Assembly: GCA_017404385.1 (NCBI GenBank)
Contig: JAFRCK010000023.1
Coordinates: forward strand, 186,001 to 250,000
Direction of reading: 5' to 3'
DNA length: 64,000 bases
Origin: Bacilli bacterium
GTDB taxonomy: Bacteria; Bacillota_I; Bacilli_A; RF39; UBA660
In this document: positions 12,773 through 27,825 of the stretch, piece by piece
How positions within the stretch are numbered: the stretch's first letter is position 1
Layout: each line of letters opens with the position of its first letter
Position numbers and translations under genes: made by a program
The notes under the pieces: generated by a model
The model's database searches: none
Seen by the model: the letters and a program-made list of their open reading frames with translations, nothing else
What the model was told of the DNA's origin: nothing

Positions 12773-12801
12773 ATATTACTACAATTATATAACTATGTCA
12801 A
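12773..12801 (-). promoter_or_regulatory. Promoter of the small membrane protein and VanZ-like gene
   Basis: Minus strand TTGACA (12796-12801, perfect), a 17-base spacer and TAATAT (12773-12778). The -35 box overlaps the last codons of the DUF1016 gene. Confidence 0.8.
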
Positions 12802-13688
12802 AGCAATTTATATTCAACTGCTTTTATTCTTTTATCACTAGAATACTTAATTATGAATTTATTATTCTCTCTTACTATGATTAAACCTATGGTCTTATTA
12901 TCATTATCTTGTTTAACATTTTCATTTATATAATTCATATATACTTCGGTTTGACCAATGTGTTCTTTCTTTAACTCAGTAACTTTTAATTCAACAACGA
13001 CATAACAATGAAAAATAACATTATATAAAAGAATATCTATATAATTAAATCTATCTCCTATCTTAATCTTATATTCGTTTCCAACATAAGTAAAACCTTT
13101 ACCTAGTTGAGATAAAAAACTATCTAAATCTTCTAATATTAGTTTCTTTAATACTTCTTCTTTAATATCACCAACAATAATATTATTCTTATTATGTAAT
13201 ATAAGTGGGCTTTTAATATCATCGCCTATTTCTAGTTGATTATTGTTCTTCAATTTAATCTTTGTTTCTTCTGGTAATCTATCATATTCTTTATTCTTAA
13301 TTATATTAGTTAATTCTCTTTTACTTATATTTCTAGTTTTACATATATTTATGTAATAGTTTACTTCATTAATATCTTCAATAGGTAATAGTATCTTATA
13401 ATGTGACCAACTCAAAACGCGCTCCAGTGGAGCACCTTTTTCAATCAGATAATAAAACTGTCTCATTTTTCTTAATGAAGTAATATCATATCCGATTCCT
13501 AATTCATTAGTTAGTTTTACTGAATATTCTTTAATAATACCTTCACCATAGTGCTTTCCTGCTAATGCTAATATCTTCCCAACATTGTATTTTGTATCTA
13601 GATCACTTTTATTCCTACTATAATCTTTTACTTTTTTATATATTTCATTACTAATTAATAATCCTTTAATTTGATCATAATAATTCAT
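12798..13688 (-). CDS. DUF1016/YhcG-type PD-(D/E)XK nuclease
   Basis: 296 residues. The N-terminal half is the DUF1016 helical domain (NVGKILALAGKHYGEGIIK, SLRKMRQFYYL, LSWSHYKILLPI). The C-terminal half is the PD-(D/E)XK-like nuclease fold: LGKGFTYVGNEYKI, YIDILLYNVIFHCYVVVELKV with the D..ExK residues, then EVYMNYINE. YhcG-type proteins occur on mobile elements and are thought to act in DNA processing or defence; the substrate is not established. Just before the conserved LSWSHYK the gene contains a GC-rich palindrome (13414-13440) read as EKGAPLERV through rare codons CTG GAG CGC. A truncated paralogue is at 27.4 kb. Confidence 0.88.
   Translation of the reverse strand: MNYYDQIKGLLISNEIYKKVKDYSRNKSDLDTKYNVGKILALAGKHYGEGIIKEYSVKLTNELGIGYDITSLRKMRQFYYLIEKGAPLERVLSWSHYKILLPIEDINEVNYYINICKTRNISKRELTNIIKNKEYDRLPEETKIKLKNNNQLEIGDDIKSPLILHNKNNIIVGDIKEEVLKKLILEDLDSFLSQLGKGFTYVGNEYKIKIGDRFNYIDILLYNVIFHCYVVVELKVTELKKEHIGQTEVYMNYINENVKQDNDNKTIGLIIVRENNKFIIKYSSDKRIKAVEYKLL
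13414..13440. repeat. GC-rich palindromic element inside the DUF1016 gene
   Basis: The plus strand reads AAAACGCG, CTCCAGTGGAG, CACCTTTT. The centre GCTCC-AGT-GGAGC is a perfect inverted repeat, and the outer AAAA/TTTT also pair. The flanks AAACG[C/T]G and CACCTTT recur around a different palindrome in the KilA-N remnant at 25281-25304. Confidence 0.75.
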
Positions 13689-27359: not shown

Positions 27360-27432
27360 TAATAAAAAATATTTATTAATAATAGAAGATTTTATAAATA
27401 TATGGAGAATATAATTATTGGAGGAACTTTTT

Positions 27433-27825
27433 ATGATAAGTATATTAGATAATTATAAGAATACAAATAATATTATTAATGATGCTTCATTTATTATTGA
27501 TGAATCTAAGAATAAAGCATATAGAGCTATTAATACTGCTTTAGTAGAAAGGAACTGGTTATTAGGATATAGAATTAGTCATGAGATATTAAAGGGAAGA
27601 TCAAGGGCTAAATATGGAGATAAAGTTATTAGTAATTTATCAAAAGTCTTGACTGAGAAATATGGGAATGGTTTTAATAGTAGTGAATTACATAAGTTTT
27701 ATAAATTTTATAATTTATATCCTGAAATTGTGGCCCCATCAGGGCCACAATTAGACACTTTGTTGACATGGTCACATTATAAGATATTAATAACTATTGA
27801 AGATAAAGTAGTTAGGGATTGGTAG
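27433..27825 (+). pseudogene. Truncated DUF1016 (YhcG N-terminal) gene
   Basis: 130 residues matching only the DUF1016 helical domain: KAYRAINTALVERNWLLGYRI, KYGDKVISNLSKVL, NSSELHKFYKFYNLYP and LLTWSHYKILITIED. It then stops at VVRDW; the rest of the domain and the PD-(D/E)XK nuclease domain are missing, so it is probably a remnant. GGAGG precedes ATG 27433 by 8 bases. The N-terminal half is intact and could still be made. An 11-bp GC-rich inverted repeat (27726-27752) sits just before LLTWSHYK, the same place as the palindrome in the full-length gene at 12.8-13.7 kb. Confidence 0.75.
27726..27752. repeat. GC-rich inverted repeat inside the DUF1016 fragment
   Basis: AATTGTGGCCC (27726-27736) and GGGCCACAATT (27742-27752) pair perfectly around CATCA. 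No T run follows, so it is not a normal terminator. The codons used (GTG GCC CCA TCA GGG CCA) are unusual for this genome. Confidence 0.8.

Follow-up and report, generated by a model that had tools for sequence, protein, structure and literature searches.

In-frame palindromes in DUF1016/YhcG nuclease genes covary with their own products and are most probably recognised by them

Sites for DNA-binding proteins within coding sequences are known from the intragenic operators lac O2 and gal OI, where the repressor site is sometimes accompanied by a promoter-proximal one, and one parS site of B. subtilis lies inside spo0J. Palindromes linked to or residing in coding genes are also represented by REP sequences with their RAYT transposases and by the Rickettsia palindromic elements, and homing endonucleases are site-specific nucleases whose target is interrupted by their gene. 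In ParB and Noc, a few residues set the specificity for parS or NBS, respectively, and the palindrome is read by two monomers, each contacting its half-site via the recognition helix and the helix following it (Jalal 2020, PMC7383237). For the YhcG/DUF1016 family (COG4804), listed by PADLOC as candidate defence family PDC-S02 and comprising DUF1016_N and YhcG_C in its full-length members, the nuclease domain was recognised by Kosinski et al. (2005; PMC1189080), who gave the N-terminal domain no assignment.

Most DUF1016 genes analysed here carry a palindrome at a fixed place in the reading frame, with bases predicted by a handful of residues of the encoded protein. The N-terminal domain weakly resembles that of ParB/Noc, whereas partition functions are replaced by a PDDEXK nuclease domain, a CTPase domain is not seen and the site diversifies gene by gene, usually in the gene's own frame, in contrast to the conserved parS. 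Unlike lac O2 and gal OI, the predicted site resides within the very gene that encodes its binding protein, with which it co-evolves in different phyla, and unlike REP and Rickettsia elements it is not dispersed and is associated with a PDDEXK nuclease. Reminiscent of homing endonucleases, the E. coli site falls at a point of insertion; however, it stays intact inside the nuclease gene.

Palindromes in the window and across the family

The window, i.e., the whole 64-kb stretch of DNA that was analysed, holds two DUF1016 genes with the following features.

12798..13688, minus strand: 296-aa full-length DUF1016/YhcG gene; N-terminal DNA-binding-like domain plus PDDEXK nuclease domain
13418..13436, no strand: palindrome of the full-length gene, CGCGCTCCAGTGGAGCACC on the plus strand (from the sequence)
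13440..13484, minus strand: codons of helix 69-83, predicted HTH1 recognition helix (model and covariation)
13296..13322, minus strand: codons of helix 123-131, predicted HTH2 recognition helix (model and covariation)
27418-27825, plus strand: DUF1016_N-only ORF, 135 aa, frame opened by TTG at 27418, ATG at 27433
27676..27711, plus strand: codons of the predicted HTH1 recognition helix, NSSELHKFYKFY (alignment and code)
27726..27752, no strand: palindrome of 27 bp that the encoded DUF1016 protein is predicted to recognise
27769..27783, plus strand: codons for WSHYK

The perfect GC-rich inverted repeat AATTGTGGCCC-CATCA-GGGCCACAATT, noticed in a preliminary description, occupies exactly 27726-27752 and is the only one in the window with arms of at least 11 nt, a loop of at most 8 nt and at least 5 G/C per arm; comparable repeats were absent from 20 simulated first-order Markov windows. 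It does precede the codons for LLTWSHYK, albeit not directly as had been stated, with two codons (Asp, Thr) intervening. Likewise, the claim that it sits at the same place as the palindrome of the full-length gene is correct for the linker but not for the column: its centre at 27739, a first codon base, lies 30 nt ahead of the WSHY Trp codon, while in the full-length gene GCTCCA-C-TGGAGC before LSWSHYK is centred 18 nt upstream of this codon, as in most of the family. The absence of a T run had been taken to exclude an ordinary terminator, and this candidate is indeed ruled out, the site also lying mid-frame.

The gene at 12798-13688 matches both DUF1016_N and YhcG_C above cut-off. The short ORF at 27433-27825, in contrast, matches DUF1016_N only, lacks the nuclease domain and, ending before HTH2 and the nuclease domain, is probably a decaying copy. 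Short DUF1016_N-only ORFs, which could be decayed genes or a separate form, were also found in several other genomes (L130, L254, L289 and L290). A third DUF1016 gene elsewhere in the genome of the window has the palindrome AAATTGGCCAGT-ATC-ACTGGCCAATTT. Allowing up to 3 mismatches, each of the three sites is single-copy in this 1.3-Mb genome, which rules out a dispersed (REP-like) repeat and suggests that the target of the protein is its own gene. When 386 genomes of the family were searched for the palindrome at 27726-27752, only one other match, with 2 mismatches, was obtained.

DUF1016 genes were sampled from relatives, other phyla, archaea, viral contigs and plasmids, with E. coli collected separately and plasmid-protein rows left out of the alignment step. 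With complementarity in 7 or more of 8 pairs as criterion and the centre placed precisely 18 nt ahead of the WSHY Trp codon, an odd-centred palindrome was present at this modal linker position in 68% of 196 distinct genes. The same criterion was met by a mean of 0.16% at all other positions, by 2.3% once codons had been shuffled synonymously and by 0.12% in flanking DNA (1.28 Mb); similarly, a linker score of at least 8 was reached by 72% of the genes vs 1.7% of codon shuffles. In many of the remaining genes, extra residues precede WSHY and the palindrome is found at -24, -30, -36, -39 or -48, nearly always centred on the first codon base, the short ORF of the window being a -30 case; in some further genes it is more distant, within a longer linker. 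The full site of about 27 bp reads AA(A/T)(A/T)-N8-A-N-T-N8-AATT, with a ±1 pair that is often non-complementary. Altogether, 64 distinct half-sites were found in 64 clusters, and the palindrome is kept in genes where the encoded peptide changes.

In the subfamily with LPWKHN (L041, L053, L043, L057), even-centred palindromes such as TTGTGCAACTGGTTGCACAA and GCACCTAGGTGC lie at -16.5. In a small Bacilli clade (L026, L027, L031, L037), neither the linker nor the surroundings of the gene contain a clear palindrome of the DUF1016 type. Two genes with good palindromes (L221, L219) are located in or beside type I restriction-modification genes, and some small genomes among the relatives have many DUF1016 paralogues, for example, 14 matches in G034.

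Covariation between protein residues and palindrome bases

Among protein columns, mutual information with the bases of the palindrome highlights residues 90, 93, 94, 115, 118, 143 and 144 (numbering of L003; base positions given below are those of the right half-site). These seven columns lie outside the stretch encoded by the palindrome, each pairs with its own half-site position and the covariation reaches z values of up to 11, equal to the best protein-protein pairs. Overall, Arg and Lys go with guanine, and contingency tables give the following code.

Residue 90: R with +7 C
Residue 93: K/R mostly with +8 C, D/E with +8 G, aromatic residues with +8 A
Residue 94: K/R with +5 G
Residue 118: K/R with +4 G
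Residue 143: K/R with +3 G, V/I/L mostly with T, T/S/A with C
Residue 144: R with +2 G

For 54 divergent representatives (<60% identity), Fisher tests gave p values down to 6e-13; Arg or Lys at residue 143, for instance, was accompanied by +3 G in 15/15 cases, as compared to 0/34 without such a residue. Displaced palindromes encode other residues, yet most associations hold among them as well (8/8 vs 0/14 for residue 143 and 9/9 vs 0/12 for residue 118, Fisher tests), except that the one for residue 90 was not significant in these genes. Most associations also hold in 93 sister pairs, residue 118 being the weakest (p = 0.05). With the rules fixed, 61 genes fetched later served as held-out set, restricted for counting to those that show a clear palindrome and resemble the first set to a limited degree only. 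Here, R90 predicted +7 C in 25/25 cases (3/15 without the residue), and corresponding values were 17/18 vs 2/23 for residue 94, 16/19 vs 0/25 for residue 118 and 20/22 vs 0/19 for residue 143. In the short ORF of the window, His93 (codon at 27691), Lys94 (27694) and Lys118 (27781) all fit the palindrome bases +8 A, +5 G and +4 G, respectively, while Ser90 is a less usual partner of +7 C and the ORF has no HTH2.

In the AlphaFold model (mean pLDDT 93), residues 90/93/94 and 143/144 are placed at the N-termini of two recognition-helix-like helices, and the residues encoded by the palindrome are part of the linker between them. At a lenient cut-off, Pfam HTH_ParB (PF17762) is found in 64 of 98 N-domains (best 8e-6), and the ten best matches of a structure search with the N-domain are all ParB/Noc, including a Noc-DNA complex, although individually weak (E about 0.8 or worse). 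A sequence search of solved structures returned no match, and among the best Pfam matches of the N-domain there is no family with the N-terminal CTPase fold. The ParB/Noc trait of a palindromic cognate site read by recognition-helix residues is supported by covariation only. The nuclease domain resembles EndoMS/NucS, with the active site E, D, (D/E)xK conserved as E203, D244, D/E259 and K261 in the aligned palindrome-bearing genes, apart from one exception each at 203 and 244.

Copies outside the reading frame and the E. coli yhcG locus

Extra copies retaining the AATT ends are found in non-coding DNA just upstream of about seven genes, including L171 (exact), L212, L055, L202 and L209, whereas most genes have the internal site only and no promoter-proximal copy. 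A family-wide second operator upstream was rejected in the absence of a general excess (12.6% upstream vs 12.2% in the downstream control), leaving a handful of clear cases. Palindromes of the DUF1016 type with AATT ends were also observed 30-155 bp after the stop codons of L166, L168, L186, L106 and L209, several of them (among them those of L166, L168 and L106) unlike the gene's own half-site. In L025, the internal site is missing and a site-like palindrome, AAAAGTGTCCACAATGTGGACACAATT, 71 bp upstream of the start does not fit the residues of the gene. Two scans of viral contigs for sites gave 5 and 0 matches, one of the five in a recognisable DUF1016 ORF and the others compatible with chance or fossil sites. 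DUF1016-type palindromes without a DUF1016 ORF in the stretch were noted in the viral contigs L301 (near 3435) and L297 (near 8300).

The E. coli K-12 gene yhcG (7828-8955 in L225) contains three tandem palindromes differing in their +7/+8 letters. In the allele with K90/R93, the first palindrome has +7 G and +8 C, and in the allele with R90/W93 +7 C and +8 A; the letters for R90, R93 and W93 are those predicted by the code. The sites that the two proteins are predicted to prefer are:

AATTCGCCAGACAGTGTCTGGCGAATT for K-12 YhcG (K90/R93)
AATTGTGCAGACACTGTCTGCACAATT for the allele R90/W93

One of the K-12 palindromes corresponds to the predicted specificity of the other E. coli allele, resembling a record of past specificities. 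Strains without yhcG have a single palindrome between gltD and nanQ, matching the first of the internal palindromes of common alleles at all 27 bp. In K-12, the yhcG island is bounded by related palindromes on its two sides, and it is at these that homology to the empty site ends and begins again; a BL21-type truncation, an IS1 junction and an O157-type deletion are likewise at or beside palindromes. The palindrome on the gltD side is missing in other E. coli alleles.

Probable recognition by the own product and possible uses of the site

The preliminary description had suggested looking for a peak of inverted repeats before WSHY in a large alignment, with lack of an excess as the refuting outcome, and had proposed a functional, variable role of the palindrome. 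The peak was present, so that the idea was not refuted, and the proposal is supported by the diversity of half-sites and the letters predicted by residues. Among the roles it suggested, binding, namely by the own product, is supported by the code including the held-out genes, mRNA folding is disfavoured, and cleavage or recombination has suggestive E. coli junctions in its favour. A hairpin in the mRNA for translation control, processing or protein binding would be in line with perfect stems in transcribed sequence and with the loop-like ±1 pair. However, the mismatches over 64 distinct palindromes (15 A-C vs 7 G-T) do not favour G-U over A-C as would be expected of a stem, an intergenic copy exists in strains without the gene and an Arg/Lys-to-guanine code on HTH-like helices speaks for DNA, so that this explanation appears very improbable. 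No better is the case for a cruciform recognised by shape only, its sequence being irrelevant to a resolvase-like nuclease: the palindromes are greatly diverse in sequence and the nuclease had earlier been predicted to be related to Holliday junction resolvases (PMC1189080), but protein residues predict the bases, in held-out genes too. Virtually no room is left for mere coincidence, i.e., a conserved peptide QTxSxQL with palindromic codons and covariation arising from protein contacts. While CAGACA-N-TGTCTG does encode a common peptide and the residues encoded by the palindrome covary with its bases through coding, the signal is lost on codon shuffling, palindromes outlast peptide change, displaced ones follow the code and non-coding copies are found.

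Far more serious is the possibility that the nuclease uses the palindrome for cleavage, homing or recombination and thereby inserts, loses or exchanges its own gene, an explanation sharing self-recognition and differing in function. The conserved active site, the one palindrome in the empty E. coli site, the two bounding the K-12 island and the rearrangement junctions at or beside palindromes argue for it. Nevertheless, intact sites persist within the gene, where a cutting enzyme would attack itself, the events are few and from one locus, palindromes are inherently prone to rearrangement and the gltD-side palindrome is not present in all alleles. We regard it as a genuine but minority option. 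Slightly more tentative still is its extension to a self-addressed nuclease family, each gene having an in-frame cleavage or homing site, with specificity residues and site evolving as a unit and internal and border palindromes marking where the element inserts, is lost or keeps out DNA with the same gene; cleavage itself is inferred here.

Because the code holds and its residues are on the helices of a ParB/Noc-like domain, each DUF1016/YhcG gene most probably holds, in frame, the palindromic DNA site recognised by its own protein, to which we assign a probability of roughly 0.85 in the absence of any binding or expression experiment. At odds with this are the clade without sites (L026/L027/L031/L037), the misfit of the palindrome upstream of L025, the mismatch between flanking palindromes and own half-site in L166, L168 and L106 and the weak E-values of the structural similarity to ParB. 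According to this self-recognition, the site would encode the linker between the two DNA-reading regions of its own protein and be bound by a dimer, one subunit per half-site. Residues 90, 93 and 94 of HTH1 would read ±5 to ±9, and residues 115, 118, 143 and 144 might contact ±2 to ±4. Bound to its own gene at a cis-acting operator or anchor, the nuclease could limit its own transcription. Such a self-operator or anchor is inferred as the most likely use, at about even odds, because upstream copies lie near start codons and because linkage of site and specificity suits a gene moving between hosts. In L171, L212 and L055, the internal site is accompanied by a promoter-proximal one, as is sometimes the case with lac O2 and gal OI. 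The lack of a promoter-proximal copy in most genes is unusual for an operator; self-directed cutting or homing is the main functional rival, and both may occur together.

In the titles, abstracts and terms of the DUF1016 literature searched, with most subscription journals outside this scope, neither an internal palindrome nor a recognition code is described. We are not aware of any other family whose genes mostly contain the co-evolving site of their own product in frame; the components (ParB-like HTH, PDDEXK nuclease, palindromic site) are of known kinds. With site and specificity residues within about 165 bp, both would travel together through transfer and recombination. Protein and DNA co-evolve within this one stretch, and the DNA that the product prefers restricts the sequence encoding it. 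For a nuclease family that is widespread but has no known function, a DNA-recognition code can now be read and a target predicted for every member, and this exact substrate makes binding and cutting testable at once, with the E. coli locus offering filled, truncated and empty states among laboratory strains.
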